Below are positions 9,764 to 38,912 of a stretch of DNA of 43,448 bases, piece after piece. Position numbers and translations under genes: made by a program. How positions within the stretch are numbered: the first letter of the stretch is position 1; each line of letters begins with the position of its first letter. The notes under the pieces were generated by a model that saw nothing but the letters and a program-made list of their open reading frames with translations, had not been told where the DNA came from and did not search any database. Source of the stretch: Alcaligenaceae bacterium (GTDB lineage: Bacteria; Pseudomonadota; Gammaproteobacteria; Burkholderiales; Burkholderiaceae_B); contig CANCMG010000030.1 in NCBI GenBank assembly GCA_947378965.1, positions 1 to 43,448 of the forward strand, read 5' to 3'.

Positions 9764-10314
9764 GCGGTTCAGTTACCAACAGTTCAATCATGAGCAGCAC
9801 CACCACGAGCAGCGCCACCGCGAACAACACTATACGAAATATCCACCTTTATGGTGCAAACATCGATACCGATGTGATTTTGCCTGGTAAATATCTCAAT
9901 CTGTATACGCCCGAAGAGCTTGGCCCCCACTGCATGGAAGGTCTCGACCCAAGTTTCATCCAGCGAGTACGCCCAGGCGATGTCATCATCGCGGGCAGTA
10001 ACTTTGGAACAGGCTCTTCAAGAGAACATGCCCCGATTGCCATTAAAGCGGCCGGGATCTCGTGCATCATTGCTACGAGCTTTGCCCGCATCTTTTATCG
10101 TAATGCGATCAATATCGGGCTGCCCGTTTTTGAGTGTGCAGAAATCGTTGCTGCAGTCAAAAATGGGGATACGATTGCGGCAGACATTACAAAGGGTTTG
10201 TTTACGGTCAACGGGGTGGCCTTTCAAGCCAAGCCGTTTCCGCCTTACATACAAGCGATTATCGATGCAGGAGGACTTGTTCCTTTTGTTAGCGCCCAAC
10301 TTAAACAGACTTGA
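9760..10314 (+). CDS. 3-isopropylmalate dehydratase/aconitase-type small subunit
   Basis: A 184-residue LeuD-like swivelling subunit, partner of the large subunit. Family marks are IDTDVI (35-40) and GSNFGTGSSREH (79-90). A strong GAAAGGAG site precedes the ATG, which overlaps the previous stop as ATGA. Odd points: residues 2-24 are a Ser/Thr/Asn-rich extension not expected in this family, built from a 15-base tandem repeat (five-residue pentads IMSST, TTSSA, TANNT). The last 15 codons and stop also lie in a 57-base unit that is tandemly repeated downstream. A start nearer residue 25 would remove the extension, but the ribosome-binding site supports the upstream ATG. Confidence 0.88.
   Translation: MSGSVTNSSIMSSTTTSSATANNTIRNIHLYGANIDTDVILPGKYLNLYTPEELGPHCMEGLDPSFIQRVRPGDVIIAGSNFGTGSSREHAPIAIKAAGISCIIATSFARIFYRNAINIGLPVFECAEIVAAVKNGDTIAADITKGLFTVNGVAFQAKPFPPYIQAIIDAGGLVPFVSAQLKQT
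9787..9831 (+). repeat. 15-base tandem repeat inside the small-subunit gene (3 copies)
   Basis: Three in-frame 15-base units (9787-9801, 9802-9816, 9817-9831). Copies 1 and 2 agree at 12 of 15 bases, copies 2 and 3 at 10 of 15. They encode the low-complexity Ser/Thr/Asn segment near the N terminus of the LeuD-like protein. Confidence 0.6.
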
Positions 10315-10439
10315 ATCATTACCAGAGACTTGCTTGTTTCTTTCGTTAACAGGTGACTTAAACAGACTTGAAGCATGACCAGATACTTGCTTGTTCCCTT
10401 CGTCAGCAGGCAATTCAAACAGATTTGAAGCATGACCCA
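10269..10439 (+). repeat. 57-base tandem repeat at the 3' end of the LeuD-like gene (3 copies)
   Basis: Units 10269-10325, 10326-10382 and 10383-10439. The first contains the last 15 codons and the stop of the LeuD-like gene; the next two form most of the spacer before the Bug receptor. The core ACTTAAACAGACTTGAA is nearly unchanged in all. The period is a multiple of three, so the copies keep the gene's reading frame and each repeats a stop codon at the same place (LKQT-stop, LKQT-stop, FKQI-stop). Confidence 0.85.
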
Positions 10440-10482
10440 ATACAGTTACGATTAAAAATCAGAGAATATCTAAGGAAACAAC

Positions 10483-11478: not shown

Positions 11479-11530
11479 GCACTGCAATTCACTCAGCAAA
11501 CTTGCCAAGCCCACCAACGATAAGATTACA

Positions 11531-11591
11531 CATTCAGTAAGGTTGAGCCTACTGAGTGCTCTAGCGGGTAGGCTATCGCTTAGGCTACCCG
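11531..11591. terminator. Two consecutive hairpins between convergent genes
   Basis: The first hairpin pairs CATTCAGT-A-AGG (11531-11542) with CCTACTGAGTG (11548-11558), with one bulge. The second pairs CGGGTAG (11565-11571) with CTACCCG (11585-11591), directly abutting the stop codon of the minus-strand glycosyltransferase. Together they fill the gap between two convergent genes and are best read as a bidirectional terminator. Confidence 0.6.
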
Positions 11592-13244: not shown

Positions 13245-13496
13245 CAGGCTGAGTCCAACTGTATGACTTTGGCTTATGGCTTAGTATAGCGTTTGCTGTT
13301 GCTCAATATCCCGTCGAGTCAGCAGCCATTTTTTGTATTCTTTGCGAACCTCTGCCAATCAGCAGCCGATGCGCTCAGACATTAAATTTTGTATGCTCAT
13401 GACGTCTACGTTGTCTTTAACCAAATGCGCGAAGATCTTCCACAGTTTGGTGTACGACCTTTTCAAACCATATATCGTCAGGCAAATGAGGCCAAG

Positions 13497-14552: not shown

Positions 14553-14687
14553 AGTGTGTCGCAACCAAGGCCGTTGAATGTTTGATTGCATCGGCGACCG
14601 CATGACCTCAGTCAGTCGTGATTGCTAGTTATTTATCGATTTTAGGTTCAAGTTTTGGTAGGTTCGAGTACGCGGTAATTTTTCTCA

Positions 14688-18480: not shown

Positions 18481-18486
18481 CCGTAG

Positions 18487-20968: not shown

Positions 20969-20970
20969 TC

Positions 20971-22984: not shown

Positions 22985-22986
22985 CG

Positions 22987-23032
22987 CTAGGTTCAAATTG
23001 CGAAGAGCATCCCGAAATTAATCAAAGGCATG
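22987..23032 (+). pseudogene. Transketolase gene relic
   Basis: Bases 22988-23032 match the transketolase gene at 14983-15027 at 39 of 45 positions. In the matching frame it reads LGSNCEEHPEINQRHA, against LGSHCEGHPEINQSHG in the intact enzyme. Three of the six differences are synonymous, as if the piece came from a homologous coding gene before it decayed. It begins three bases after the ATPase stop and runs into the 14-base repeat array. No other part of a transketolase is visible here. Confidence 0.7.
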
Positions 23033-23039
23033 CTGACGT

Positions 23040-23165
23040 AATCAACGCTTAGCAATCAACGCTTAGCAATCAACGCTTAGCAATGAATGATTAACAATGA
23101 ACGCTTAGCAATGAACGATTAGCAATGAACGATTAACAATGAACGATTAACAATGAACGATTCGA
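23040..23165. repeat. 14-base tandem repeat array (9 copies)
   Basis: Nine consecutive 14-base units from 23040, three AATCAACGCTTAGC followed by variants of AATGAACGATTAAC. The last unit and a half encode the final residues and stop of the minus-strand cupin gene (IVHC-stop). Most of the array repeats that gene's 3' end across the spacer between convergent genes. A gradient of change runs along the array: the copies far from the cupin gene share the CAACGCTTAGC form. Confidence 0.9.
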
Positions 23166-23779: not shown

Positions 23780-23786
23780 AAAAATA

Positions 23787-25567: not shown

Positions 25568-25580
25568 AGCCTTGACATAA

Positions 25581-25700
25581 AAATCTCATTGCAGTGAAGC
25601 GACTGAATTTGGTGCTCACGAAAGCTTACTGCAGTGAAGCTGCTCAATTTGGTGTCCACGAAAACTTATTGCAGTGAAGCAACTCAATTTGGTACCCAGG
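25581..25700. repeat. 40-base tandem repeat at the 3' end of the binding-protein gene (3 copies)
   Basis: Units 25581-25620, 25621-25660 and 25661-25700, each with GCAGTGAAGC followed by AATTTGGT at fixed positions. The last unit holds the final codons and stop (VPN-stop) of the minus-strand binding protein; the other two fill the spacer before the DppB-like gene. Confidence 0.9.
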
Positions 25701-27261
25701 TTTTGATCAGGCCGAAATACCAGCCGGTTGGATGTTGTTGATGGTTTTGGACACGGGCACCCTCTACCGTCAAGAGATCAGCCGAAAACATCATGATCGT
25801 CGGAACACTTTGGGCAAGTTGCTTCTGAAAGTTATTGTAAATTTCGCGACGTTTGGCGTAGTCCGACTCTTCACGACCTTGATCCAGTAAAGCGCTGGCT
25901 TGCTCGTTTTTCCAGTTACGGAAGTCTGCGCCAAGCGGGGCCGCTCTAAAGTGCCTGTAATACAGCAGGCTAGGATCTGGCGAGGCAGGCCAGTCGTTAA
26001 AGGTAAAGCCCATCTGTTTGTTTTGAAAATTACGCACCCAGACACCAAGTTCTAGTTTCTTGATATTGACACGAATGCCGATCTTCTTAAGTTGTTCAGC
26101 GATCGTGATGGCTGCCGGATCCATCCAGTCATAGGTAATGATGGTCGTCAGATCAAGCTCAAAGCCGTTTGGGTAACCCGCCTCAGCTAAGAGTTTGCGA
26201 GCGGTGTCTAAGTCGACTTTCTGATTGGGTGTTTGATCAAGTGGTAAGCCCCAACGCGCCTGCATGCCTGCAACCATTGTGCCGATCACCTGCCCATAGC
26301 CCGCAATTGAGGCTTGCATGACTTCGTTTTTATCGATTGCAAGGGCAATCGCGCGTCTGACTCGCTCGTCTGTGAGTAGCGGATTCTCTGACCCCAGATC
26401 AATACTTTTTTGATTCATTGACGGGGTCCGAATCAACTTTAACCCCTTCACCTTGGTCAGTTGCTCAGTATCTTGCGGGCGAGTGAAAATAGCCATATCG
26501 ATTCGAGCATTGGTCGCTGCCACCGCCATCGCTGCCGAATTTGGCATGAACGCAAAGGTGACTTCGTCTAGATGCGGCAAGCCTTTTTGCCAATAATCCT
26601 TGAACTTTTCAAAGACCAAAACCGAATTTTGGCGAAACTGCTTAAGTTTGAAAGGACCTGTACCCACAGAGACTTGATTCAGTTTTGCTTTCGCGTCTGG
26701 TGTCGCAAAGTAATCTTTCGGAATGACGCCACCATAGCGATGGGTCAGTGTCATCGGCAACAAACCATTGCGACTCGATAACGTAAAAATCACCGTATCG
26801 TCATCGGGTGCAGAGATCGACGCTACGGTTGAAAGATCACCCGCACCGGGTGAGCCATTTTTAGAATCACGCAAGTAGTCATAGCTGTACTTGACATCGG
26901 CCGCTGTCATCGTTTGACCGGTATGAAACTTTACCCCTTGACGCAACTTGAAGGTGTAGGTCAAACCATCGGCGGATTGGGTATAACTTTGTGCCAGCAA
27001 AGGAACGGCTTCGCCCGAGGCGCCTTCGTAAAACAAACCTTGATACGAAAGAACTGTTACACGTATTCTGGCGTCTGCGCCCTGGTGGTAGGGATCCAGT
27101 GAAGGCGGTTCAGTCAAAGAACCAATCGTGAGTTTCCCGCCAGACTTTCCTGTGGGGTCCGATTTTCCGTAAAGCGCATCGTCTTGCGCCCATGTCACCG
27201 TTGAGATTGCAGCCACCAACAAAAGGGCTGACAGTTGCCTAATCCATTTAGAAAAAGTCAT
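25684..27261 (-). CDS. ABC transporter substrate-binding protein, family 5 (DppA-like)
   Basis: A 525-residue extracytoplasmic binding protein of the peptide/nickel/opine family (SBP_bac_5). A Sec signal peptide ends near residue 25 (STVTWA-Q). The mature start KLTIGSLTEPPSLDPYHQ is the family signature. The usual three-lobed length is kept. Family members carry di- and oligopeptides, opines, glutathione, acylated amino acids or sugar oligomers. The enzymes in the same run (mandelate-racemase-type, alpha/beta hydrolase, RidA) argue against a simple peptide and for an acidic or N-acylated ligand. The C-terminal codons form one unit of a tandem repeat. Confidence 0.92.
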   Translation of the reverse strand: MTFSKWIRQLSALLLVAAISTVTWAQDDALYGKSDPTGKSGGKLTIGSLTEPPSLDPYHQGADARIRVTVLSYQGLFYEGASGEAVPLLAQSYTQSADGLTYTFKLRQGVKFHTGQTMTAADVKYSYDYLRDSKNGSPGAGDLSTVASISAPDDDTVIFTLSSRNGLLPMTLTHRYGGVIPKDYFATPDAKAKLNQVSVGTGPFKLKQFRQNSVLVFEKFKDYWQKGLPHLDEVTFAFMPNSAAMAVAATNARIDMAIFTRPQDTEQLTKVKGLKLIRTPSMNQKSIDLGSENPLLTDERVRRAIALAIDKNEVMQASIAGYGQVIGTMVAGMQARWGLPLDQTPNQKVDLDTARKLLAEAGYPNGFELDLTTIITYDWMDPAAITIAEQLKKIGIRVNIKKLELGVWVRNFQNKQMGFTFNDWPASPDPSLLYYRHFRAAPLGADFRNWKNEQASALLDQGREESDYAKRREIYNNFQKQLAQSVPTIMMFSADLLTVEGARVQNHQQHPTGWYFGLIKTWVPN

Positions 27262-27306
27262 AGAAGCTCTCTGTCTTGTTAAGTTATTAAAAAACTGTCG
27301 CGACGC

Positions 27307-27768
27307 TTAAGGCTTGAGCGCAAACACAAACTCGATCTCGACTGGCACGCTGCGCGGTAACTCAGCAACCCCAACCGCCGAGCGTGCGTGCTGGCCTGCT
27401 TGTGCAAAGATTTCGAGCATCAAGTTTGAGGCGCCATCAATCACACGCGGTTGGTTCACGAACCCGCTGGCAGAGGCCACAAAACCAGTCAGCTTGATCA
27501 CGCGTGCAATTCGATCCAAAGACCCGAGCTCAGACTTGAGAACACTGAGCGCGTTGAGCACGCACAGTCGGGCGGCCTCTTGCCCTTGCTCTAACGAGAC
27601 TTCCGCCCCTAGCTTGCCCTGCGGCAAACTGCCATCCAGGCGCCAGGGCAACTGACCAGACACCCAAGCAAGACCAGCCTCGCACACAACAGGCACATAA
27701 GCAAAAGCCGGACTTTTAGGCTCGGGCAACACCAAGCCAAGTTCATTTAATCTGCCTTCTATACTCAT
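27307..27768 (-). CDS. RidA/YjgF-family protein
   Basis: A 153-residue member of the Rid family, which hydrolyses reactive enamine/imine intermediates or acts in related amidohydrolase steps. The N terminus has the LPEPKSPAFAYVPVV block of the YjgF-like subgroup with a 150-residue length. The C terminus ends RSAVGVAELPRSVPVEIEFVF, where the second Arg matches the substrate-carboxylate-binding Arg of RidA. Its ATG overlaps the previous stop by one base (TAATG). In this operon an imine or enamine intermediate is thus a likely product, for instance after oxidation or elimination on a nitrogen compound. Confidence 0.88.
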   Translation of the reverse strand: MSIEGRLNELGLVLPEPKSPAFAYVPVVCEAGLAWVSGQLPWRLDGSLPQGKLGAEVSLEQGQEAARLCVLNALSVLKSELGSLDRIARVIKLTGFVASASGFVNQPRVIDGASNLMLEIFAQAGQHARSAVGVAELPRSVPVEIEFVFALKP

Positions 27769-28703
27769 TACAAAACCCCTTTTGATTCGTTGATCAAGTC
27801 AAGCAATGTCTCTGTTAAGTCGTAGCGCTGTCGCCAACCGGTTTCACGCTCTAATAAAGCCTGGCTAACCAGAGGGTACACAATATCCGCAGGTGTAACG
27901 TTCGCGCGTGCACGAAAGCCCGGCACGAGCTCTGTTAAGGTTTGAATGATGTCTGGGTAACTGGTGGTAAAGCCCGAGACGTTATAGAGCGGTGACAGTG
28001 TTGCTCTGTGATCCAATAACGTCTGCACTAAGCCCCCTATATCTTTGACATTCATTGCATCAAAAGAATGAAAGGGTACAGACAAGGTCTTGCTCTCTAA
28101 GCCTAACGCCTGGCGCACCAAATCACCGACACTGGCTGCTGCACCGCGATACCACAAACCCACCCCTAGCATCAACGGAATACGCAGGCCAGTGACCTGC
28201 AACCCCTCTCGTTGGCGATAGAAAGCGGCGATCTCTTCAGTCAGCACTTTACTTAACCCATAGTGCACCAGAGGCCGCTTAGGCGCGCCTTCGTCTAGCC
28301 GCTGACCTGGTGAAAGCTCAGCGCCAAACACCACCGTAGAGCTGGTCCAGAGCACGCGCTGAATGCGGTGCCGTACACACGACTCGAGCAGATTTTGAAA
28401 TCCTAAAACATTGACCCGCATCATGGTGTGTGGATCGATTTCACCAGAACGCGTTAAGCCGTTCGTCTCAGAAGAAAAAGACGCCAAGTGTACGACTGCG
28501 CTTGGTTGGAGTTGCTTGATAACCTCATCGAGCAGAGTTTGCTCTTCGATCGAGGCTATTGTTTGTGTAGCCCCTGCAGGTAACTCAACCAGGCTGTCAG
28601 GGCCAAACACATGCACCTGCCGTCCGCTGGCTAAGAGGTGCCGAACCACTGCCGCCCCAACAAAGCCGCGGCCTCCGGTCACCAAGATGCTGTCACGACT
28701 CAT
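27768..28703 (-). CDS. NAD(P)-dependent epimerase/dehydratase family (extended SDR)
   Basis: A 311-residue extended short-chain dehydrogenase. The nucleotide site is TGGRGFVGAAVVRHL at the N terminus (Gly motif at about 9-15). The catalytic Tyr and Lys stand in VHYGLSKVLTEE (YxxxK). Related enzymes include nucleotide-sugar epimerases, uronate dehydrogenase and 3-beta-hydroxysteroid-type dehydrogenases. With no nucleotide-sugar context and a catabolic operon, dehydrogenation or epimerisation of an acid substrate is more likely. Coupled to the RidA gene by a one-base overlap. The first nine or so codons are part of a three-copy tandem repeat that stretches upstream to the end of the DppF-like gene. 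Confidence 0.88.
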   Translation of the reverse strand: MSRDSILVTGGRGFVGAAVVRHLLASGRQVHVFGPDSLVELPAGATQTIASIEEQTLLDEVIKQLQPSAVVHLASFSSETNGLTRSGEIDPHTMMRVNVLGFQNLLESCVRHRIQRVLWTSSTVVFGAELSPGQRLDEGAPKRPLVHYGLSKVLTEEIAAFYRQREGLQVTGLRIPLMLGVGLWYRGAAASVGDLVRQALGLESKTLSVPFHSFDAMNVKDIGGLVQTLLDHRATLSPLYNVSGFTTSYPDIIQTLTELVPGFRARANVTPADIVYPLVSQALLERETGWRQRYDLTETLLDLINESKGVL

Positions 28704-28795
28704 GCTTTGCCCTCAGGGTCGCAGGGATGCTGTTCACGACTCATGCCTGAGACTCCAGCCACAAGGATGCCGTCACAATCATTCTACGGCCTCAG
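28677..28795. repeat. About 40-base tandem repeat bridging two gene ends (3 copies)
   Basis: Units of 40, 41 and 38 bases start at 28677, 28717 and 28758. On the minus strand unit 1 is the start of the epimerase gene (ATGAGTCGTGACAGCATC). Unit 2 repeats it, including a second ATG, within the spacer. Unit 3 contains the stop of the DppF-like gene. The copies share the core around GATGC-TG-TCACGACTCAT. Confidence 0.75.
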
Positions 28796-29810
28796 CTGTT
28801 AAAGCAAGATCGTCGCGCAGGCACGCGACTAAACGACCGGCGCCCAAATCTTTTAAGACTGGAACCTCTACCTCACATTTTGGCAAAACATACGGACATC
28901 TCGTACGAAAGACACAGCCACTTGGGGGATTGATCGGGCTTGGGATTTCACCTTTGAGCATCACGCGATCGGCTTTTTTCTTATGCGCCTGAGGTGCGGC
29001 CGCCAAAAGCCCTGCAGTGTAAGGATGCAGAGGCGAGGTATAGAGCTCACGCGTCGGAGCGATTTCCATCACTCGCCCTAAATACATCACCATCACTCTG
29101 TCTGCCATGACCTCGACCACGCTAAGGTCGTGAGAAATAAAAATCATGGTCAGTCCTAGATCTGACTGTAGCGTGCGTAACAACGACAACACCCCCGCCT
29201 GCACCGACACATCGAGGGCAGAGACTGGTTCATCTGCGACGAGTAAGCGTGGATTAACAGCCAGCGCACGCGCAATGGCAATTCTTTGTCGCTGTCCACC
29301 AGAAAATTCTCGAGGCCAACGCGCAGCAGCCTCGGCTGGCATCCCTACTAGCCTTAATAACTCTGCCACTCTGTTCTGCCGATCGTTGCGGTCACGTTGA
29401 CCATGCAACTCAAGCACCTCTTCGAGCGCTGCTCCGACCTTTCGACGAGGATTTAAACTTGCGAAAGGGTCTTGAAATACCATCTGCATGTCACTTCGCA
29501 ATTTAAGCAACGCCCGCGACGACAACAAAGAGATATCCTGACCATTGAAGTAAATCTTGCCAGCACTTGACTCTATCAGCCTTAACACCAGGCGACCTAG
29601 GGTCGACTTACCTGAACCAGACTCACCCACCAGGCCAAGTACTTCGCCCTCAGTCACGTCAAACGAAATTTTCTCGACTGCACGTAGCGTTGGGCCACGG
29701 CGCCAACCTTCTCTGGGTAAGGTAAAGTCTTTCGAAATATCCACCACGCGCAGCAAAGAATATTGCGGCAAGAGTTTGGCGTTCTGTTGCGGTGTGAACG
29801 GCTGTGTCAT
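28779..29810 (-). CDS. Peptide/opine-type ABC transporter ATPase, DppF-like
   Basis: A 343-residue ATP-binding subunit. Walker A GESGSGKST, signature FSGGQRQRIAIARAL, Walker B LLVADEPVSALD and the switch His in FISHDLSVVE are intact. The C terminus has the oligopeptide-family Cys block (GCVFRTRCPYVLPKC). In DppD/OppD-type subunits this block can hold an iron-sulfur cluster. I start at the ATG 19 bases after the DppD-like stop; 60 further in-frame codons upstream lie inside that gene and are not coding. The start MTQPFTPQQ has only a weak ribosome-binding site. Confidence 0.9.
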   Translation of the reverse strand: MTQPFTPQQNAKLLPQYSLLRVVDISKDFTLPREGWRRGPTLRAVEKISFDVTEGEVLGLVGESGSGKSTLGRLVLRLIESSAGKIYFNGQDISLLSSRALLKLRSDMQMVFQDPFASLNPRRKVGAALEEVLELHGQRDRNDRQNRVAELLRLVGMPAEAAARWPREFSGGQRQRIAIARALAVNPRLLVADEPVSALDVSVQAGVLSLLRTLQSDLGLTMIFISHDLSVVEVMADRVMVMYLGRVMEIAPTRELYTSPLHPYTAGLLAAAPQAHKKKADRVMLKGEIPSPINPPSGCVFRTRCPYVLPKCEVEVPVLKDLGAGRLVACLRDDLALTAEAVE

Positions 29811-29829
29811 GACTGACTTAGGTTGCCTT

Positions 29830-30930
29830 TCACGAGAGTTCACGCCAACGATCACAGCGCACGCTCTGCGCCTCTGCGATCGTCTGCAAGGCAATGCTGT
29901 GGTCATGACAAGCCTCTTGCTGGTATTGGCAACGGGGCGCAAACCTGCAGCCTTGCAGCAATCCAACCACTTCGGGTGGGCGACCCTCAATCGGTTTCAT
30001 CACTCGGTCATCGGGCCCATCATCCCGATAGTGTCGCACCGGCCTACAAGCAAGCAGGGCGCGCGTGTAGGGATGCTGAGGTTGTTCAATGACCTGAGCA
30101 ACCGTGCCATGTTCAACAATTTGCCCAGCATACATTACGATCACTGCATCGGCGATTTGTGCGACTAGGCCTAAGTCGTGAGTGATAAATAACAACGCCA
30201 TACCGTATTTGGACTGCAGCTCAGCGAGCAAACTCATCATCTGCGCCTGAATGGTCACGTCCAGCGCAGTGGTCGGCTCATCCGCAATCAACAATCTAGG
30301 CTGACAGGCCAGCGTGATAGCCAGCATGACTCTTTGACGCATACCGCCCGACAGTTGATGCGGATAAGCCTTCAGACGCCTTTGTGCATCTGCAATCCCG
30401 ACGTCTTCAAGCAACTGTATCGCCAATTGATTTGCATCTTGCTCTGGCTGATGCAGTCGAAGCGTTTCACGTAATTGCGAACCGATCGTGAAGACCGGAT
30501 TTAAACTTGCGCCCGGGTCTTGAAAGACAAAACCGATCTCTGACCCACGAATCTTTTGTAAGTCAGTGGGGCGTAAAGATAACAAGTCGCGCACCTGCCC
30601 AACACGATTGCGCCACAAAGCCTGGCCAGATAACTTGACTTGATCGCCTCGGTTAAATAGCCTTAAGATACTTAAGGCCGTGACGGATTTGCCGCTGCCA
30701 GACTCTCCGACCAGTGCCACGGTTTGCCCAGCGGCAATAGAAAACGATACCCCTGTCACGACGCAGTTTTCTTTACCCCCAACAGCAAAGATCGTCTTGA
30801 GTTCTCGAAGTTCGAGCAGCGCTTCGCCCTGAGTCGGGCGACTGACCGCTTTTAGTTCTTGAAGTTCGAGCAGCGCTTCGCCTCGAGTCGGGCGACTGAC
30901 CGCTTTTGTTGATTCAGCGACGTCAAGCAC
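29830..30930 (-). CDS. Peptide/opine-type ABC transporter ATPase, DppD-like
   Basis: A 366-residue ATP-binding subunit, partner of the DppF-like protein. Walker A GESGSGKS, signature LSGGMRQRVMLAITLA, Walker B LLIADEPTTALD and the switch His in FITHDLGLVA are present, plus the C-terminal Cys block GCRFAPRCQYQQEAC. The start is GTG. The N terminus is odd: an 18-residue unit, KAVSRPTRGEALLELQEL, occurs twice in a row with two substitutions, encoded by a 54-base direct repeat. Normal family members have only the second copy's equivalent, so this is a recent in-frame insertion ahead of the ATPase fold and probably tolerated. Confidence 0.9.
   Translation of the reverse strand: MLDVAESTKAVSRPTRGEALLELQELKAVSRPTQGEALLELRELKTIFAVGGKENCVVTGVSFSIAAGQTVALVGESGSGKSVTALSILRLFNRGDQVKLSGQALWRNRVGQVRDLLSLRPTDLQKIRGSEIGFVFQDPGASLNPVFTIGSQLRETLRLHQPEQDANQLAIQLLEDVGIADAQRRLKAYPHQLSGGMRQRVMLAITLACQPRLLIADEPTTALDVTIQAQMMSLLAELQSKYGMALLFITHDLGLVAQIADAVIVMYAGQIVEHGTVAQVIEQPQHPYTRALLACRPVRHYRDDGPDDRVMKPIEGRPPEVVGLLQGCRFAPRCQYQQEACHDHSIALQTIAEAQSVRCDRWRELS
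30800..30907. repeat. 54-base in-frame direct repeat in the DppD-like gene (2 copies)
   Basis: Units 30800-30853 and 30854-30907 agree at 51 of 54 bases and lie within the first 45 codons of the minus-strand gene. The high identity makes this the youngest-looking of the gene-end duplications in the window. Confidence 0.95.
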
Positions 30931-30954
30931 GTATCAGTCATCCACTGTTGAGCG

Positions 30955-32097
30955 TTAGGTAATACGAAACTCAGCTAAGGCATCCGGATCAATATCAATT
31001 CCTAAGCCCAGACCTTGCGGGACAGTCACGTAGCCATTGATTGCGAGCAAAGGGTCTCGTAACAGTCGCTCTTTGAGTGGATTCTTGCCAATATCGTATT
31101 CGACCAGTGTCGGGGTGGGATCGTTACTGCTATGCGGGTAATTTGAAAGTGAGGCTACCCAATGTACGGCAGCAGCCAGCCCAACCGGCCCACCCCAGAC
31201 GTGTGGCGACACTCTTAAATGGGCACTTGAACAAAGCTCGCCGATAAAGCGTGCCACACTCAAGCCGCCAGCCAAAGATAAGTCTGGTTGCAACACATCC
31301 ACCAGGCGCTCTTCAACGAGTCGACGAAAATCAAAGGTCTCGTACAGGGCCTCGCCAGTAGCCAGCGGAATCGGCGCTTTTTGTTTGAGTTCAGCGTAGC
31401 CACGCCAATCTTGCGGCGCTAAAGGCTCTTCATACCAACCAATGTTGTAGGGCGCGATTCTGCGCATGCTCTCAAGCGCCTGATCCACGGTGTAATTGCC
31501 GTTACCGTCCACCGTCAACACGGCTTGATCGCCAATAATGCTACGAGCCAGTTTGACCCGCTCGGCATCCTCTGCCGGATGTCTGCCAATCTTGATTTTG
31601 AAGGCAGGAAACCCACTGTTAGCGTGCGGCTCGAGCTGTCTGGCCAAGGCCGCCTGCTGATCCGCTTCAAGGGTGAAATAGCCACCCGAAGCGTACACGG
31701 GGACTTGTGTTCGCTGTCGGCCACCGATCAAGTCACAGACCGAAACCCCAAGGCCCTTACCGATCGCATCGTGGCTGGCAATATCGATTCCACTGAACAG
31801 CGCAATCATCTGGTTTTGCGTGCCGAGATGATAGTTTTTAGCCAGAATCAATTGCTGGACACCACGCTGCGCGTAGAGACTTTGGTCGATGAAGTACGGT
31901 CGAATAATATCCAGGTAGGCGGCGCATACCTTTGGGGGACCCCAAGCCTCACCAATGCCAGTGATGCCAGAATCGGTCTCGACAAAAATTAACGAGCAAC
32001 CTCTTTTCGAGGTAAGACCCCTGGCCATCCCATAGGCTTGGCTTTCGGGTAACGAGGCTTCAAGCCCGATGATCCGGATATCTCTAATTTTTGTCAT
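30955..32097 (-). CDS. Mandelate racemase-subgroup enolase-superfamily enzyme
   Basis: A 380-residue enolase-superfamily enzyme that removes the proton next to a carboxylate with Mg2+. Residues line up with mandelate racemase almost number for number: KIK at 167-169, metal ligands D197, E223 and E249, and the His-Asp dyad D272 (QPDLS) and H299 (SPHVWGG). The dyad places it in the MR subgroup (acid-sugar dehydratases, mandelate or related racemases) rather than the muconate or dipeptide-epimerase subgroup. It lies between the alpha/beta hydrolase and the transporter genes. The substrate is likely a 2-hydroxy or sugar acid, or an aromatic hydroxy acid, released or imported by this operon. Confidence 0.9.
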   Translation of the reverse strand: MTKIRDIRIIGLEASLPESQAYGMARGLTSKRGCSLIFVETDSGITGIGEAWGPPKVCAAYLDIIRPYFIDQSLYAQRGVQQLILAKNYHLGTQNQMIALFSGIDIASHDAIGKGLGVSVCDLIGGRQRTQVPVYASGGYFTLEADQQAALARQLEPHANSGFPAFKIKIGRHPAEDAERVKLARSIIGDQAVLTVDGNGNYTVDQALESMRRIAPYNIGWYEEPLAPQDWRGYAELKQKAPIPLATGEALYETFDFRRLVEERLVDVLQPDLSLAGGLSVARFIGELCSSAHLRVSPHVWGGPVGLAAAVHWVASLSNYPHSSNDPTPTLVEYDIGKNPLKERLLRDPLLAINGYVTVPQGLGLGIDIDPDALAEFRIT

Positions 32098-32121
32098 TGG
32101 TGAAGGTTCCGTTTAGCCCGG

Positions 32122-32997
32122 TTAAACATTTCGCTTAGCCATTCTCAAGATTGCACGCAGCACATCGCTATCCAAGTCCAAGTACTGATCAATAATACTG
32201 AAATGATTAAAGCCTGGTGAGACAGCAACGCCCGGATCACCACCATGACGGTGCAAGTGGTGTGCATAGCGATAGGATTGATCGATGAATTGCCAGGGTT
32301 CGCGTCCGCCAGCAATAATTTGCGTGGGGCAAAGAATCAAGGGTGGTTGTCTTTCGTAGTCATGTCGCGCAATCTGCTCTGTCGTCAGATGCAGCTCAGC
32401 ATTGACAGACGTCAAAACGGCTGGTGCTGGGTCGTAGATGCCACTGATCAGCGTTGCAGCCTTGAGCAGTTGTGCAGGCAGGCCATACGCCGTCCAGTCA
32501 GTTGCCAAGGCTGCAGCCCCCAAGTGTGCGCCAGCCGAATGTCCGGACAGGGTGAGTTGCTCAGGGTCACCGCCATAGGTGGCAATATTGCGTGCAGTCC
32601 AGGCGATCGCCTCAAGCGCTGACTTAACGACCCCGTCAAGATTCACCTCGGGGCATAACGCATAATTCGCAATAACCGTGCAGATCCCTGCCTGATTTAA
32701 GGGTGTGGCGATATAGGCAAAGTTTGCTTTGTCTTGGGTGCGCCAATAACCACCATGAAAGAAAATATGAACAGGCGCGTTAGGTTGAGCCACTGGATAA
32801 ATATCGAGTGTGTGTAGTTTGGCACTGCCGTACTTAACATCTGCCACGCGCGTCGGGCAAGCCAAAGCGATTTCATTTGGCTTGTCTCGCAGTGCTCGGT
32901 ACTTGGCAAACTCGGGGACTGCCTTTTGCGGATTGTAGTGATACTCATGTTCTTCTGGGCTTAAGCCGTGCCAGAGACGAAGTGCTTCTGCTTGCAT
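32122..32997 (-). CDS. Alpha/beta hydrolase, HGGxW type (arylformamidase-like)
   Basis: A 291-residue soluble esterase/amidase and probably the first gene of the minus operon. It has the oxyanion-hole motif HGGYW (81-85), typical of arylformamidases (N-formylkynurenine formamidase-like) and related carboxylesterases, nucleophile S154 in GHSAG, and a C-terminal His in FNHFSII. The N-terminal YxYNPQKAVPEF region is also usual in this group. I start at the ATG behind AGGGTGG; an in-frame ATG 11 codons earlier lacks such a site. Likely hydrolyses an ester or N-formyl/N-acyl bond to feed the racemase-type enzyme. No kynurenine-pathway gene is nearby, so the named role is not claimed. Confidence 0.85.
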   Translation of the reverse strand: MQAEALRLWHGLSPEEHEYHYNPQKAVPEFAKYRALRDKPNEIALACPTRVADVKYGSAKLHTLDIYPVAQPNAPVHIFFHGGYWRTQDKANFAYIATPLNQAGICTVIANYALCPEVNLDGVVKSALEAIAWTARNIATYGGDPEQLTLSGHSAGAHLGAAALATDWTAYGLPAQLLKAATLISGIYDPAPAVLTSVNAELHLTTEQIARHDYERQPPLILCPTQIIAGGREPWQFIDQSYRYAHHLHRHGGDPGVAVSPGFNHFSIIDQYLDLDSDVLRAILRMAKRNV

Positions 32998-33128
32998 TGA
33001 TAGCCACCCTAAAAAACAACCCTTGCACAAGGCGATGCCTTTGCGTAAAGAGGTGCTAAACAGCGATGAACCGTCACCCTAACTATTTGGGCGCGTCCTT
33101 TGTCTTTATCGTTTTTTTTTGCTGATTC

Positions 33129-33157
33129 AATTTACTGCCTCGCTATTGCAAAGTCAA
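33129..33157 (-). promoter_or_regulatory. Candidate sigma70 promoter for the minus-strand operon
   Basis: On the minus strand TTGACT (-35, 5 of 6) is followed after exactly 17 bases by TAAATT (-10, 4 of 6). Transcription would start about 125 bases before the alpha/beta hydrolase ATG. Confidence 0.5.
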
Positions 33158-33220
33158 CAGGCGGGCTTGCGTGCGGAGTTCTAAGTTCAAGCGCCGCCGA
33201 CCGTTAGGCTGCTCTTCTGG

Positions 33221-33249
33221 TTGACAGTTTCTGCAATTCAAAATAACCT
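33221..33249 (+). promoter_or_regulatory. Candidate promoter for the liv operon
   Basis: A perfect -35 TTGACA at 33221-33226 is followed after 17 bases by a poor -10 (TAACCT, 3 of 6), about 55 bases before the LivK-like start. The weak -10 suggests dependence on an activator. Confidence 0.4.
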
Positions 33250-33305
33250 CAAACGTGAATCGATTTTTGAAAAGAGTCTGAAAAGGCCATATTGGAGGAG
33301 CCCAT

Positions 33306-34511
33306 ATGAATACGATCGCTCGTGCGGTTTGTGGTTTTGTTTTAAGCGTGGCTGGGCTGACAGCCTCGGCGCAACAGCAGGGCGTCACCGCTGACAATAT
33401 TTTAATTGGTGCCTTTGGGCCGATTACTGGGCCGGCGGCCTACATTGGGCTGGCGGGCCGTGATGGCATGAACCTTGCGATCAAAGAGATTAATGCCGCT
33501 GGCGGGATTAACGGTCGTAAATTATCATCCGCCTTTGAAGATGACGCCCACTCGCCCACCAGAGGCTTGGCCGCAGCTAAAAAACTGATTGAACAAGACA
33601 AAGTCTTTATGTTGATGTCAGTCGGTGGTAGTAACGCAACGGCCGGCACGATTGACTATGTGCGCGATAGCAAGTTGATTATGTATGTGTCGATTGCTTC
33701 AGTGCCACAAGTGACCTGGCCTTTCGCTAAAAATATGTTTCGTGGCGGCACGACCGAATCGGCTCGCTACGGTGAGCTCTACGCTGAGTTTCTCTCCACT
33801 CACTTTAAAACCAAAAAAATCGGAATCATGAGTGGCCGGGAGGAGTATCCGCGCAACGAGGGTGACGCGACGGTGACCAAGTTAAAAGACTGGTTTGGCC
33901 TTGCACCGGTGGCGCGAGTTGAGTTCAATATTGGCGATAAAGATTTCACGCCACAGCTGGTGCAAATGCAAAAAGCTGGCCCAGATGTCATCGCCTTTTT
34001 AGGAAATCCGGCAGAGGCAGCGATTGCCATGCGTCAGGCTAAAGAGCTTGGCCTGAAGCAGCCCTTTTTTGTCGGTAGCAATATGGTTGACCCCGCACTG
34101 GTGTTAGCCGCACGTACTTCGGCAGAAGGGGTAACAGGCTTTTCATTAATTCCGTTATTGCCTGGCTCAAAGAACCCCGACATGGTGAAGTGGCAAGAGT
34201 CTTGGAAAAAAGAGTATCCAAGCGCACCTGCTGGTCGTCCCAATAACTTTGACGTGATGGCCTATGCTGATATGTATGTCGTGGCCGATGCGATGAAACG
34301 TGCCGGCAAAGACCTGACAACCGATAGCATGATTGCGTCTTTAGAAGCCACCAAAGACTTCAGCGTCGGAGCGATTGCGACCAAGCGCACCTTCTCGACC
34401 AAGCACCATATTGGTAACCTGACCTTAGTGCCCATGATTGTGCAAAATGGCGCTTGGGAGCCAGTCACCTGGAGTAGTTCGCGTCAAAGTGATATTTTGA
34501 ATCGCTACTAA
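33306..34511 (+). CDS. Branched-chain amino acid-type ABC substrate-binding protein (LivK-like)
   Basis: A 401-residue type I binding protein of the LivK/Leu-Ile-Val family. A Sec signal ends near residue 22 (LTASA-QQ). The mature N terminus has GVTADNILIGAFGPITGPAA and the typical INAAGGINGRK. Members of this family in catabolic clusters often bind aromatic acids, amides or urea rather than amino acids. A strong GGAGG site precedes the ATG. First gene of a run of at least nine genes that includes amidohydrolase, acyl-CoA synthetase and HyuAB. Ligand likely the compound those enzymes degrade. Confidence 0.92.
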   Translation: MNTIARAVCGFVLSVAGLTASAQQQGVTADNILIGAFGPITGPAAYIGLAGRDGMNLAIKEINAAGGINGRKLSSAFEDDAHSPTRGLAAAKKLIEQDKVFMLMSVGGSNATAGTIDYVRDSKLIMYVSIASVPQVTWPFAKNMFRGGTTESARYGELYAEFLSTHFKTKKIGIMSGREEYPRNEGDATVTKLKDWFGLAPVARVEFNIGDKDFTPQLVQMQKAGPDVIAFLGNPAEAAIAMRQAKELGLKQPFFVGSNMVDPALVLAARTSAEGVTGFSLIPLLPGSKNPDMVKWQESWKKEYPSAPAGRPNNFDVMAYADMYVVADAMKRAGKDLTTDSMIASLEATKDFSVGAIATKRTFSTKHHIGNLTLVPMIVQNGAWEPVTWSSSRQSDILNRY

Positions 34512-34531
34512 CGCGCTCGCAGCGTCATACG

Positions 34532-35407
34532 ATGACAATCACGCTTGCGTTTCAGTTGGCGATTGCAGGGGTCAGTGTCGGAAGCATTTATGCTCTCGTG
34601 GCACTGGCCATTGTGATTCCCTTTAAGTCATCGGGTGTACTTAATTTTGCACAGGGCGAGGTCGTCACGTTTGGTGCCTATGCCGCCTTGGTGTTAACAC
34701 AACTCGCGCTCCCGTATTCGGTGGTGGTGTTAGGTGTTGTGGTGCTGGGTGGGGTGGGGGGCATTGTGGCCGAACGTCTGCTGATTCGGCCAATCGTTCA
34801 GGCACCTGAGTTCACATTAGTGATGGCGACCTTTGCGATTGGCCTGCTGATTAAAGGTCTGATTTCGCTGAAGTTTGGCGATAGTGCGGCGTCGCTCGAC
34901 AGCCCCTTTGATCCAGAGCCACTTCTGGCCTTCGGCTTGAGATTTAATCTGACCTCGCTTTGGATCTTGGCGTGCACCACGTTCGTGACTCTTAGCGTCA
35001 TTGGTTTTTTTAAATATACAAAAATGGGTAAGGCCATGCGAGCCGTTTCGGTGAACGCCGAGGCGTCCAGACTGATGGGCATCAAAGTGAGTTCTGTGTA
35101 TCGCTGGGCCTGGGGGATCAGCACAGCCATCGGTGCATTGTCTGGTTTGCTTGTGGCGCCCTTGATTGGTATCAATCCTGAAATTGGCCACTTAATACTA
35201 AGAGGCCTGCTTGCCGCAGTGATTGGTGGCTTCACCAGCATCGCGGGTGCGGTGTTTGGTGGTATTGCGGTCGGCTTAATCGAAACATTTTCTGGTGTGT
35301 TGATCGGTAGTACCTTTAAAAATCTCGTGCCTTTTCTGTTATTGATGTTGCTGCTGTTCTTCAGGCCACACGGCCTGTTTGGTGCGGCTGAAGCGAAAAG
35401 AGTCTAA
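34532..35407 (+). CDS. Branched-chain-type ABC permease (LivH-like)
   Basis: A 291-residue inner-membrane permease with about eight hydrophobic spans. It opens with AGVSVGSIYALVALAI and NFAQGEVVTFGAYAAL, the standard LivH signatures. The Val/Gly-rich third span is encoded by a low-complexity GGT/GTG stretch. Pairs with the LivM-like subunit, whose likely start follows four bases after its stop. Confidence 0.92.
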   Translation: MTITLAFQLAIAGVSVGSIYALVALAIVIPFKSSGVLNFAQGEVVTFGAYAALVLTQLALPYSVVVLGVVVLGGVGGIVAERLLIRPIVQAPEFTLVMATFAIGLLIKGLISLKFGDSAASLDSPFDPEPLLAFGLRFNLTSLWILACTTFVTLSVIGFFKYTKMGKAMRAVSVNAEASRLMGIKVSSVYRWAWGISTAIGALSGLLVAPLIGINPEIGHLILRGLLAAVIGGFTSIAGAVFGGIAVGLIETFSGVLIGSTFKNLVPFLLLMLLLFFRPHGLFGAAEAKRV

Positions 35408-35411
35408 ACGC

Positions 35412-36374
35412 ATGAAGATTTCTCCAGCAACCTGGTTTGGCGTAGTGGCTGTTGGCGCTTTCGCGATCGCTGGGTCGTTTATGGGAAGCTACCCCATTTA
35501 TCTATTGAGCTTGGCGATGATAAACATCATCTCAGCGCTAGGGCTCAACTTATTGACAGGCAACTCTGGGCAAATTTCACTTTGCCACTCGTCTTTTATG
35601 GCGCTTGGTGCCTACGTTTCGTCGCTGCTGACTTCGATGTTAGGGCTGCCCTTCTGGGTGGCGATTCCGTGTGCAGTGTTGATTGCCGCGTGTCTTGGCA
35701 CCTTGTTGAGTCTGCCCACCAGACGTCTGCGCGGAATCTATCTGGCCTTGGCGACCTTGGGATTTTTGCAACTGGTGCAGATTACGCTCGAAGAAATGTC
35801 CGAGCTGACAGGCGGGGTACGTGGCTTGAAAGTCCCGCAACCCACTGTCTTTGAGGGCCAGCCTCTTAATTATTATTCGATCTATCTGGTGGTGTTGGTG
35901 GTGTGTGGACTGTCGATTTTAGTGACACGAAATTTGCTGGCCTCGCGGATTGGGCGCGAACTGAATGCTGTCCGCACCAGTCCGCATGCTTCGCAAGCAC
36001 TTGGTGTGTCGGTAGATCGCGTCAAGTTGATTGCTTTCGCGCTAGCGGCGGGCTATGCAGGACTTGCTGGCGGCTTACTCGCCGTAGTGGTTGGGTTTAT
36101 TGATCCGAATGAATTCGGTGTCTCGGCGGCGCTTAAGCAAATCACTTTTATTGTGGTGGGTGGCTTAGGATCGGTCATGGGTTCTGTGCTTGGTGCGACC
36201 GTGTTGTCTGCGCTGCCTGAACTATTACGACCCGTTAAAGAATACAGTGACGTGATTTATGCGCTCATCCTTTTGGGGTTTTTGATCTTTGTGCCGCGGG
36301 GCTTAGCCGCTTCGCTTGAGCTCTTTGTCTTGAGCCTAATACGCAAGCGGGTCTGGCGCAAAAAATTATCATGA
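35412..36374 (+). CDS. Branched-chain-type ABC permease (LivM-like)
   Basis: A 320-residue permease with about nine spans and the LivM signatures GLNLLTGNSGQISLCHSSF and GVRGLKVP. I chose the ATG at 35412, just after the LivH-like stop; an in-frame GTG at 35379 inside that gene would add 11 charged residues. The cytoplasmic segment GVSVDRVKLIAFALAAGYAGLAGG contacts the ATPases. Its stop overlaps the LivG-like start as ATGA. Confidence 0.92.
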   Translation: MKISPATWFGVVAVGAFAIAGSFMGSYPIYLLSLAMINIISALGLNLLTGNSGQISLCHSSFMALGAYVSSLLTSMLGLPFWVAIPCAVLIAACLGTLLSLPTRRLRGIYLALATLGFLQLVQITLEEMSELTGGVRGLKVPQPTVFEGQPLNYYSIYLVVLVVCGLSILVTRNLLASRIGRELNAVRTSPHASQALGVSVDRVKLIAFALAAGYAGLAGGLLAVVVGFIDPNEFGVSAALKQITFIVVGGLGSVMGSVLGATVLSALPELLRPVKEYSDVIYALILLGFLIFVPRGLAASLELFVLSLIRKRVWRKKLS

Positions 36375-37150
36375 CCTTACCTCGCTTAACGCTCGAAAAA
36401 ATTGCCGTACGTTTTGGTGGGCTGATCGCCGTGCGCGATCTGTCTCTATCGCTTGCGCCCGGAGAAATCCGCGGCTTGATTGGCCCAAACGGGGCAGGCA
36501 AGACAACCGCCGTGAACGCGATTTCTGGTGTCGTACCCATCGAACAGGGTCGTATTTTTCTCGATGGCGATGATGTTTCTGGGCTGGCCCCCCACGAGCT
36601 CAGCCGAAAAGGGATTGCGCGTACGTTTCAACATGTCGAAGCCTTTGGTGATATGACCGTGTTAGAGAACGTGATGATTGGAGTCGCCAGACACGCGCCC
36701 GTTTCGTTATGGTCTGCCGCGGTCGGCACCCCCTTTGCGCGTCGCACTGAGTTGGCCTACCGGAAAGATGCGCTAGATATTTTGAAGTTATTTGAACTTG
36801 AAGGCTATCAAGATACGGTCGCTTCTGAGCTACCCTTTGGTCTGCTAAAGCGCATGGATTTGGCTCGTGCCTTGGCCTCACGTCCTAAAATATTGTTGCT
36901 CGATGAGCCAACGTCGGGCATGAGCGAAAGTGAAGCTGATCGTGCGATTCAAGCGGTTCGGCGACTGGCTGAGCAATTTTCTATGACGCTGTTAGTGATT
37001 GAGCACAACATGCGTGTGATGATGGCGCTCGCTGATGTCGTCACCGTCATGCAACAAGGTGCGGTGATCGCTGAGGGGACGCCGCACGAGATCCAAAACG
37101 ACCCCGTCGTCATTGCTGCGTATTTAGGTGACGAAGATGCCGACGCTTGA
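36371..37150 (+). CDS. Branched-chain-type ABC ATPase (LivG-like)
   Basis: A 259-residue ATP-binding subunit. Walker A is GPNGAGKTT (38-46), Walker B ILLLDEPTSGM, switch His in VIEHNMRVM. The ABC signature is degenerate: where LivG normally has LSYGQQRRLE this protein has LPFGLLKRMD. The paired LivF-like subunit keeps a perfect signature, so the heterodimer still has one canonical site. Overlaps LivM by four bases and LivF by 14. Confidence 0.9.
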   Translation: MTLPRLTLEKIAVRFGGLIAVRDLSLSLAPGEIRGLIGPNGAGKTTAVNAISGVVPIEQGRIFLDGDDVSGLAPHELSRKGIARTFQHVEAFGDMTVLENVMIGVARHAPVSLWSAAVGTPFARRTELAYRKDALDILKLFELEGYQDTVASELPFGLLKRMDLARALASRPKILLLDEPTSGMSESEADRAIQAVRRLAEQFSMTLLVIEHNMRVMMALADVVTVMQQGAVIAEGTPHEIQNDPVVIAAYLGDEDADA

Positions 37151-37856
37151 AATCAACTCGCTGACCTCTGGTTACTCAAACATACCGGTCTTGAAAGAGA
37201 TCTCGTTAACGGTTCCCGAACATAGTATTGTCGGGATATTGGGTGCGAATGGTGCGGGCAAAAGCGCATTGTTACGCGCCATCTCCGCTTTGAACCCTGT
37301 ACACAGCGGCAGCATTCAGTTTGACGGCGTTGAACTTGGCGCAATGACTGCCGAGCGGGTCGTGGGTGAGGGCGTGATCCAAGTCCCTCAAGGACGTTTG
37401 TTATTCGGTTCGATGAGTGTGCGTGAAAACCTCGAACTCGGTGCGTTTTTGCAAACAGACCGCGCCTTTATCCGTGAGCGTCTGGCTCACGTCTGTCATC
37501 TGTTTCCGGTATTGGCCGAGCGCGCGAATCAGGCTGCGGCCTACTTGTCTGGTGGCGAGCAGCAGATGCTCGCGGTGGGGCGGGCCTTGATGTCGAAACC
37601 CAGATTGCTTTTGCTCGACGAGCCCTCGCTTGGCCTTGCACCAAAGATTTTTGACTTGATCCTCGACAAGCTCAAAGACATCCATGCGGCAGGCGCTTCA
37701 ATTTTGATTGCCGAGCAAAACGCTCGCAAAGTATTACGTTTTGCACAGTATTGCTATGTCTTACAAAATGGCAGTATTGCCTTTCACGGCACCACTGAAT
37801 CACTCAAGAATGACGTTCGCATTGAGCAATCTTACCTAGGGGCAGTAACAAAATGA
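37137..37856 (+). CDS. Branched-chain-type ABC ATPase (LivF-like)
   Basis: A 239-residue ATP-binding subunit with Walker A GANGAGKS, signature LSGGEQQMLAVGRAL and Walker B LLLLDEPSLGLAP. The ATG at 37137 has AGGTGA six bases before it, inside the end of the LivG-like gene; an in-frame GTG at 37128 is the longer alternative. Overlaps the next gene by four bases (ATGA), so the amidohydrolase is translationally coupled to the transporter. Confidence 0.92.
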   Translation: MPTLEINSLTSGYSNIPVLKEISLTVPEHSIVGILGANGAGKSALLRAISALNPVHSGSIQFDGVELGAMTAERVVGEGVIQVPQGRLLFGSMSVRENLELGAFLQTDRAFIRERLAHVCHLFPVLAERANQAAAYLSGGEQQMLAVGRALMSKPRLLLLDEPSLGLAPKIFDLILDKLKDIHAAGASILIAEQNARKVLRFAQYCYVLQNGSIAFHGTTESLKNDVRIEQSYLGAVTK

Positions 37857-38710
37857 AATTGATCGATATCCACTCACACTGGGGCACCAAGCGCGGTTAT
37901 GCCTTGCAAGACGAGGCTGAGTTGGCGCAGCAAAAGGCGACCTGGAACTCGCAGCCCAGCTATCATACCGAGGCTGAAATGGCGGCCTATTTTCGCCAAA
38001 CTGGGGTTCGGGCGATTCTCGATTTTGGCTATACAAAATATATTCCTTTAAGTCAGGCGAAAGCCATTCATGATTATGGTTTTGAAACGCAGCGTGCCCA
38101 TCCGCAAGAAATTATTGGTCATTGGGTTCACATCGACCCCCACACCGGTATTGAAGGGGTTCGCGAATTAAGACGTTGTATTGATCAGGCGCCAGGCTTT
38201 ATCGGCTTTGCTGTGTCGGGCTCGGGAAGCGGGCCCGCCTCTGACCCAATTTGGGCGCCCTTTTACGAGTTGTGCACAAGCGCAAAAATCCCTGTGCTGA
38301 TTTTTGTTGGGACAACAGGGCTTGGGGCGGGGTTGCCTGGCGGCAATGGCATCATTCTTGATCACTGTCATCCGCGTCATCTTGATGAGGTGGCAGCAAA
38401 AAATCCCGACATGACAATTGTGGCAGCTCGTCCGGGCTGGCCCTGGCAGGCTGAAACGCTTGCCGTACTGCTGCACAAACGCAATATTTGGTACGAATTG
38501 CACGGCTGGTCGCCTAAGTATCATCAACCCGATTTACAACACGACATCTCGCGCAGATTGCGTGACCGTGTCATGTTTGGGGCGGATTATCCCCTTTTTA
38601 CCTATGAACGACTGATTGATGACTGGAAGAAATGTGGTTACACCCAAGAGGTGCTTGACCACGTGTTTCATCTGAACGCCGAGAGATTTCTTGAGTCGGT
38701 GAAACGTTAA
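37853..38710 (+). CDS. Amidohydrolase-superfamily protein (Amidohydro_2)
   Basis: A 285-residue TIM-barrel protein of the ACMSD/Amidohydro_2 group (PF04909), acting as hydrolase or decarboxylase on small acids. Metal motif HSH at 7-9, a later His-rich DHCHPRH and the C-terminal metal Asp in FGADYP are seen. The segment that in many relatives reads AHPGWPW is AARPGWPW, so a usual metal-binding or catalytic His is Arg. Some subgroups do carry Arg there, so activity may be retained with a changed centre. Coupled to LivF by ATGA. The last nine codons and stop form the first unit of a four-copy 58-base tandem repeat. Confidence 0.85.
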   Translation: MKLIDIHSHWGTKRGYALQDEAELAQQKATWNSQPSYHTEAEMAAYFRQTGVRAILDFGYTKYIPLSQAKAIHDYGFETQRAHPQEIIGHWVHIDPHTGIEGVRELRRCIDQAPGFIGFAVSGSGSGPASDPIWAPFYELCTSAKIPVLIFVGTTGLGAGLPGGNGIILDHCHPRHLDEVAAKNPDMTIVAARPGWPWQAETLAVLLHKRNIWYELHGWSPKYHQPDLQHDISRRLRDRVMFGADYPLFTYERLIDDWKKCGYTQEVLDHVFHLNAERFLESVKR

Positions 38711-38912
38711 GACAACCGTAAATGGCTGAAGCTTGCAAGAGAGATTTCTTGAGTCGGTGAAGCGTTAAGACAACCGTAAATGACTGAAGTTTTCAAGAGA
38801 GATTTCTTGGGTCGGTTAAACGTTAAGACAACCGTAAATGACTGAAGCTTGCAAGAGCGATTTCTTGAGTCGGTGAAACGTTAAGACATCCGTAAAAAAC
38901 TGAAGCGCTCAA
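38681..38912 (+). repeat. 58-base tandem repeat at the 3' end of the amidohydrolase gene (4 copies)
   Basis: Units start at 38681, 38739, 38797 and 38855. The first holds the last nine codons and TAA of the amidohydrolase. All contain GATTTCTTG, CGTTAAGACA and a CTGAAG block at fixed distances, with only a few differences per copy. They fill almost the whole 252-base gap before the acyl-CoA synthetase gene. There are no spacers, so this is not a CRISPR array. Confidence 0.95.

Follow-up and report, generated by a model that had tools for sequence, protein, structure and literature searches.

The DNA analysed here, called the window below, is a stretch of 43,448 nucleotides of an Alcaligenaceae bacterium (contig CANCMG010000030.1 of assembly GCA_947378965.1). 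It is contig C30 of the genome G000, which comprises 4.50 Mb in 189 contigs, and 31 congeners were used for comparison. The subject is a set of seven short tandem arrays at 9787 to 38912 of the window, most of them lying over the ends of genes, and the genome-wide population of similar arrays to which they belong.

Tandem arrays of the window

The seven arrays and the genes that they touch are listed in Table 1. All are duplications of local sequence. The array set was compiled with Tandem Repeats Finder (TRF) at a score of at least 50 and a period of at least 10 nt; calls with a score below 50 or a period below 10 were dropped, as was the lower-scoring row of any overlapping pair. The window was run at a minimum score of 30 and then again at a score of at least 50. 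Six of the seven arrays reported in a preliminary description are recovered by the program. The missing one, at 28677, is unlisted even at score 30 and is a degenerate repeat that only partly rises above shuffled sequence. With unit limits chosen by eye, units 1 and 2 reach 35 against a maximum of 19 in 500 shuffles and units 1 and 3 reach 25 against 20, but units 2 and 3 do not exceed the shuffles (16 against 23). A repeat search finds in it an exact 13-nt repeat, 41 nt apart. The period-15 array at 9787 is marginal. Nine arrays with a score of at least 50 and a period of at least 10 occur in 40 random Markov-1 windows, about 0.2 per window, and by score alone this array could therefore be due to chance.

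Each array had been described as covering the start or stop of a gene. Four do include a stop codon (those at 10297, 23040, 25590 and 38681) and the 28677 repeat covers a start and a stop, but those at 9787 and 30800 lie entirely within the coding part of a gene, at distances of about 27-32 and 23 nt from its start. Unit 1 of the 57-nt array is the 3' end of gene 9760-10314 including its stop (10314), and the later units fill the spacer ahead of the TctC gene 10483-11478. Unit 1 of the 58-nt array is likewise the 3' end of the amidohydrolase gene including its stop (38710). The 14-nt array extends out of the spacer across the stop (23147) of the cupin-like gene 23147-23779, whose Cupin_2 match is below Pfam's cut-off. 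The spacer between the SBP_bac_5 gene and the permease gene is 116-152 nt long, depending on the permease start chosen. The epimerase-like gene at the 28677 array is 27768-28703. The array at 30800 consists of two copies with zero excess length. The left 9.7 kb of the window is free of arrays at a score of at least 50, as had been stated.

Table 1. Tandem arrays of the window and the stretch that carries most of them
Feature	Position	TRF call	Strand	Location
Period-15 array	9787	9792-9823, score 50	+	in the in-frame N-terminal insertion 9772..9841 of the aconitase-C-like gene 9760-10314
57-nt array	10269..10437	10297-10437, period 57, score 198	+	
14-nt array, 8.8 copies	23040-23162	period 14, score 169	-	
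40-nt array	25590-25698	period 40, score 155	-	over the stop (25684) of the SBP_bac_5 gene 25684-27261
Degenerate repeat of about 40 nt	28677..28800		-	over the epimerase-like gene start (28703) and the ABC gene stop (28779)
54-nt (18-codon) in-frame duplication	30800-30907	period 54, score 195	-	near the N-terminus of the ABC gene 29830-30930
58-nt array, 3.9 copies	38681-38906	period 58, score 382	+	
Stretch without a congener match of at least 85% DNA identity among the matches listed (31 congeners)	22985..40636			carries five of the seven arrays

Load in the genome and in congeners

The genome-wide sample consists of 1.303 Mb of G000, in pieces of 44 of the 189 contigs with the window included. 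A simple gene caller finds 1137 genes in it, 88.6% of the sequence being coding, and the median spacer between genes is 64 nt. The sample holds 148 arrays with a period of at least 10, of which 71 have a period of at least 30 (long arrays below), a density of 54.5 long arrays per Mb. Two sampled congeners carry far fewer: G004 has two in 301 kb (6.6 per Mb) and G014 has one in 386 kb (2.6 per Mb), so that G000 exceeds them 8-fold (p=6.6e-5) and 21-fold (p=3e-7). All p values given here are nominal, and several tests share the same arrays. The seven loci L004-L010 together contain no long array in 143 kb. G036, of the same family, has five in 400 kb, all of them intergenic. The contrast is weaker for periods of 10-29, where G000 has 59 arrays per Mb, G004 has 40, G014 has 10 and G036 has 90.

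The copies of long arrays agree with each other by 67 to 100% according to TRF, which bears out the suggestion that they are of different ages. The arrays are spread over the genome. They occur in 33 of the 44 pieces, the sole test made of a mixed bin, which was rejected on this ground, and a hot spot on a single contig was rejected because their dispersion over the pieces is compatible with an even spread (p=0.14). The piece with the most long arrays, G000:C13:5867-35399, holds eight in 40 kb; a maximum of eight has about a 3% chance. Enrichment in acquired DNA was also rejected. Blocks with at least 80% identity to the relatives' sequence compared, termed core-like, contain seven long arrays in 132 kb, a density similar to that of the remainder (64 in 1.171 Mb, p=1). 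Hints of such enrichment are that five of the seven window arrays lie in a stretch without a close match among the matches listed, and that a 9.6-kb query from C13 with five arrays has only 32-34-nt matches, in four of ten congeners.

Reading frame and gene ends

Duplications inside genes almost always preserve the reading frame. The period is divisible by three in 16 of 16 internal long arrays and in 39 of 44 internal arrays with a period of at least 10, against only 15 of the 55 long arrays that are not internal. The long arrays divide into 16 internal, 28 gene-end-spanning and 27 intergenic ones, where uniform placement expects 55.8, 10.8 and 4.3. The statement that none occurs mid-gene is thus true of the window at a score of at least 50 and fails for the genome, where 44 of the 148 arrays and 16 of the 71 long ones are internal. 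Five of the 16 internal long arrays begin or end within 25 nt of a gene terminus, as expected if the ends of proteins tolerate additions.

Placement was simulated by dropping random units on the genome that matched the observed ones in length, each array being shortened to a single copy. The share of gene-end-spanning arrays among the non-internal ones does not differ from random placement in the tolerated sequence, either for long arrays (28 of 55, 42% expected, p=0.22) or for periods of 10-29 (12 of 49, 23% expected, p=0.74). This agreement and the short median spacer indicate that the anchoring of arrays at gene ends is mostly a matter of geometry. With internal in-frame arrays present as well, the claim that gene ends as such are targeted is at most partly supported.

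Starts and stops behave differently. Boundaries of the 104 non-internal arrays show a peak at -30..+19 of the stop (48, 24.1 expected), and those on the start side fall below expectation (17, 25.5 expected, p=0.05), as do arrays within 10 nt of a start (16, 27.3 expected). The proposed genome-wide test of gene-end preference accordingly gives a modest effect for stops and none for starts. Start-side counts and spacer lengths, which depend on starts from the simple caller, are less certain than the stop-side counts, and genes missed by the caller in long spacers could raise the expected counts far from stops. The tests in short spacers and those within 150 nt of a stop partly address this inflation; within 150 nt, 48 of 79 arrays have a boundary at -30..+19, with 34.1 expected (p=0.002). 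In 31 of the 34 non-internal arrays that span a stop, the stop lies in the first unit, and on this ground an origin of the stop codons by frameshift is not supported. Divergent spacers are depleted of arrays (15 of 104, 30.6 expected), and convergent ones contain 18 arrays with a period of at least 10, 12.4 being expected.

Junctions of the duplications

The lengths of 47 arrays could be measured, those with indels, an identity below 85% or a period below 18 having been excluded; 23 have two copies and 24 have three or more. The length of the two-copy arrays differs from two periods by -1 to +1 nt in 14 cases, by -2 or -3 nt in five and by +5 to +11 nt in four. Simulated blunt duplications have a chance homology of zero in 56% of cases, one in 27%, two in 11% and three or more in 6%. 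Because 19 of the 23 carry at most 1 nt beyond two periods, like the simulated blunt events, most two-copy arrays were evidently founded without detectable homology. The four arrays with an excess of 5-11 nt compare with about 1.3 expected from blunt events alone. Among arrays with three or more copies, some ends are near-integer and others fractional. The unit sequences had been called unrelated, and among the 105 arrays with a period of at least 20 no pair of related units was found; for only one of the 105 does the 1.3 Mb contain a similar stretch at another place.

Array loci in relatives

Seven long arrays fall in blocks that can be aligned to relatives, and G000 is the longer at six of them. 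The relative has no array at C15:36272, C18:8431, C18:14870, C37:5090 and C30:10297 and one copy fewer than G000 at C18:17878; at C80:15848, where the comparison covers presence alone, it holds a similar array. At C15 it is the gene-proximal copy that the relative conserves, and the extra copy has diverged. Where relatives are comparable (the 10297 locus and C15) the unit is the adjoining gene end. The extra copies in G000 are probably gains and not losses in the relatives.

Several window loci vary in the same way. The junction at the 3' end of gene 9760-10314 carries from zero extra copies (L117, L119) to several (L114, L120) in eight congener loci, L118 being excluded from the alignment because it falls short of the junction. 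In L115 the copies are 94% alike. L112 and L113 have the insertion 9772..9841 in the same gene. L115, L116, L117 and L120 lack it, and so does L119, where the alignment is less exact; it lies outside the L114 cut. Measured between aligned blocks, the stretch from the SBP_bac_5 gene to the permease gene at 25.6 kb exceeds that of L002-L005, whose called spacers are 58-67 nt, by 55-70 nt. In L004 and L005 the two genes around 28.7 kb share 17 nt, and in L003 they share 8 nt; in G000 they are 75 nt apart. The variable copies at 10314 and the wider spacings at 25.6 and 28.7 kb support the idea of a long-running duplication process that lengthens spacers. The extra residues of the N-terminal duplication in the ABC gene 29830-30930 are absent in L004 and L005. 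The amidohydrolases of L122, L123 and L125 (69-70% identical proteins) end without an array and an ATG overlaps the stop, and the gene downstream differs from that of G000.

Origin of the arrays

The arrays are probably the outcome of short tandem duplications that arise often and de novo and are then sifted by purifying selection. In the G000 lineage, segments of mostly 10-60 nt would be copied head to tail, de novo and at many unrelated places, the founding duplications mostly lacking flanking homology and some arrays gaining further copies later. A frame-breaking duplication within a gene likely destroys the gene, and purifying selection would let almost only in-frame duplications survive there. 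A duplication in a spacer or at a gene end would leave the frame intact, since the stop is retained by the first copy or the start by the last. As the spacers are short, a surviving duplication of 40-60 nt would often cover a gene end, so that the arrays look anchored there and the spacers lengthen. Selection rather than targeting would then make most of the pattern, and the excess in G000 would be due to faster formation rather than slower loss. The preliminary description was in this sense mostly right in what it observed and half right in its interpretation, the position at gene ends being chiefly survivorship with an approximately two-fold stop bias left over. That bias may stem from the longer recognisability of arrays with one coding copy, from a bias of formation at 3' ends or from selection on spacing. 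A bolder proposal, to be regarded as tentative at best, is that G000 harbours a natural, long-standing mutator in which the replication or topology machinery makes blunt duplications, with 8-21 times the load of the two sampled congeners, a real preference for stops and spacers built from copies of gene 3' ends.

Several observations weigh against duplication filtered by selection as the whole account. Of the 104 non-internal arrays, 51 are found no more than 10 nt from a stop, twice the 25.6 expected, and the excess survives the exclusion of the 40, 80 or 120 nt ahead of starts (beyond the 40-nt zone 31 of 68, 15.4 expected); in co-directional spacers of at most 120 nt, 29 of 34 are stop arrays, with 19.9 expected. 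The zone upstream of starts, taken as a whole, is not depleted of arrays, and the promoter-free convergent spacers are not enriched in long ones (6, 6.7 expected). The congener contrast is clear for G004 and G014, but the samples of G010 (one long array in 60 kb), G007 (one in 40 kb), G018 (none in 60 kb) and G006 (none in 40 kb) are too small to call low. The searches for Ku, PolA, ExoI, RecJ and topoisomerase genes revealed no lesion able to raise the rate.

The peak at stops and the missing excess at starts speak for a mechanistic targeting of duplication to gene 3' ends, for example through nicks, R-loops or a stalled polymerase at the point where translation ends and leaves untranslated RNA exposed. 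This explanation is rather unlikely. In-frame arrays exist in mid-gene, and the stop excess is not significant in co-directional arrays with copies at least 88% alike (16 of 36, 11.5 expected, p=0.11), although these do not differ significantly from the older ones either (22 of 35, Fisher p=0.16). In addition, stop-spanning arrays that retain a conserved coding copy may stay recognisable for longer. There is still less reason to think of ordinary slipped-strand or recombinational duplication between short direct repeats at a normal load of variable-number tandem repeats (VNTRs). The four two-copy arrays with 5-11 nt of excess and several of the 24 multi-copy arrays with fractional ends would suit it, and later changes of copy number are compatible with it, but the homology in most two-copy arrays is no greater than in simulated blunt events, and in density G000 exceeds G004 8-fold and G014 21-fold.

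That the arrays are artefacts of assembly is very improbable. G000 is indeed a draft in 189 contigs, but the copies mostly differ by several per cent, and the arrays at 10297, C18:17878 and C80:15848 are found again in relatives, where copy number or divergence is different. The least credible alternative is a dispersed repeat family, like the mycobacterial interspersed repetitive units (MIRUs), inserting at gene ends. The position at gene ends resembles the MIRUs as characterised in excerpts of PMC12548453, but a family of this kind was rejected for want of any sequence shared between arrays, and where relatives can be compared the unit is the adjoining gene end.

Repair and topology genes

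Ku (PF02735) has no match in any of the 32 genomes of the genus, the Bacillus subtilis control being positive. Classical end joining is therefore unlikely, and Ku-dependent end joining was rejected. Loss of the PolA 5' exonuclease is not supported, G000 having a match in an open frame of 916 aa, and loss of RecJ was rejected because the G000 match is over the cut-off. The C-terminal family of ExoI (SbcB), PF08411, has no match in any of the 32 genomes; among 14 control genomes it matches only Escherichia coli. As a match is missing from all 32, loss of ExoI cannot alone explain an excess in one species and was rejected as the sole cause.

Searched with the topA model TIGR01051, each of the 32 genomes yields a single type IA topoisomerase, always below the cut-off (in G000: C164, L220). 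By its sequence we take this enzyme to resemble topoisomerase III, and the genus may lack topoisomerase I proper. Over the aligned part (about 700 of 965 residues) the G000 protein departs at only a few places from that of G004, a genome with few arrays, and no change specific to G000 was seen in the aligned part of this enzyme, the only type IA topoisomerase found. G000, like G004 and G014, has an arginine four residues before the D of ADWLVG, which we presume, by eye, to be the equivalent of R168; two motif patterns matched nothing. The comparison lends no support to a topA mutator allele.

Comparison with known systems

The closest likeness is with the tandem repeats of Borgs. These are, according to excerpts of PMC9879509, unique and independently formed, are in frame within open reading frames, and in about half of the cases are intergenic or have their first unit in a gene end. 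The G000 arrays resemble them in their unrelated units, independent formation and differences between close relatives (same excerpts). Each G000 locus has a unit of its own, repeats within open reading frames are in multiples of three as reported above, and the first unit lies in the gene end in 31 of the 34 arrays, out of 104, that include a stop. The differences are also clear. Few G000 arrays are perfect and most have 2-4 copies (23 of the 47 measured have two), unlike the perfect Borg repeats of at least three units. The units are not A-rich, A being 0.286 in the non-coding part of the arrays and 0.268 in all non-coding sequence. Partial repeats do not flank most two-copy arrays, 19 of the 23 having at most 1 nt of excess and four having 5-11 nt. 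Finally, the Borg is a Methanoperedens element, whereas the window contig is binned in a bacterial genome, and parts of the contig recur in congeners at 81-92% DNA identity.

The E. coli topA R168C mutator forms short head-to-tail duplications de novo and independently of existing repeats, those in galK being 2-19 bp long (excerpts of PMC6954433). Most two-copy arrays in G000 similarly arose without pre-existing repeats. The lengths in G000 differ, at 10-80 nt, where 10 is the search floor for the period, so that the lower end of the range is set by the search. Bacterial minisatellites, or VNTRs, consist of tandem units with a variable copy number; G000 differs in its high genome-wide density of low-copy arrays that were mostly born without homology. 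MIRUs share a sequence, unlike the G000 arrays, which are unrelated to each other. They are short repeats that overlap gene ends and are said to be mobile (excerpts of PMC12548453). Searches of an open-access library, judged by titles and the openings of abstracts, yielded no description of short tandem duplications at gene ends for a bacterial chromosome.

How tandem repeats form de novo is called unknown in excerpts of PMC6954433. With about 55 arrays per Mb, graded divergence and near relatives, G000 offers natural breakpoints for studying the first origin of repeats. It also shows that selection can turn random duplications into an apparent anchoring at gene ends and into longer spacers.

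The stretch 22985-40636

The 17.6-kb stretch 22985-40636 encodes an oligopeptide-type ABC operon, an amidohydrolase and an AMP-binding enzyme. In its comparison with congeners the best nine first-look candidates per genome were scored, and the operon at 23-33 kb has no close match in the genus among the matches listed. The left edge of the stretch is within 3 nt of a stop codon (22984). The 45-nt sequences 22988-23032, in the spacer by the 14-nt array, and 14983-15027, inside the transketolase gene, are 87% alike, and a stretch similar (91%) to this pair is present in G013.

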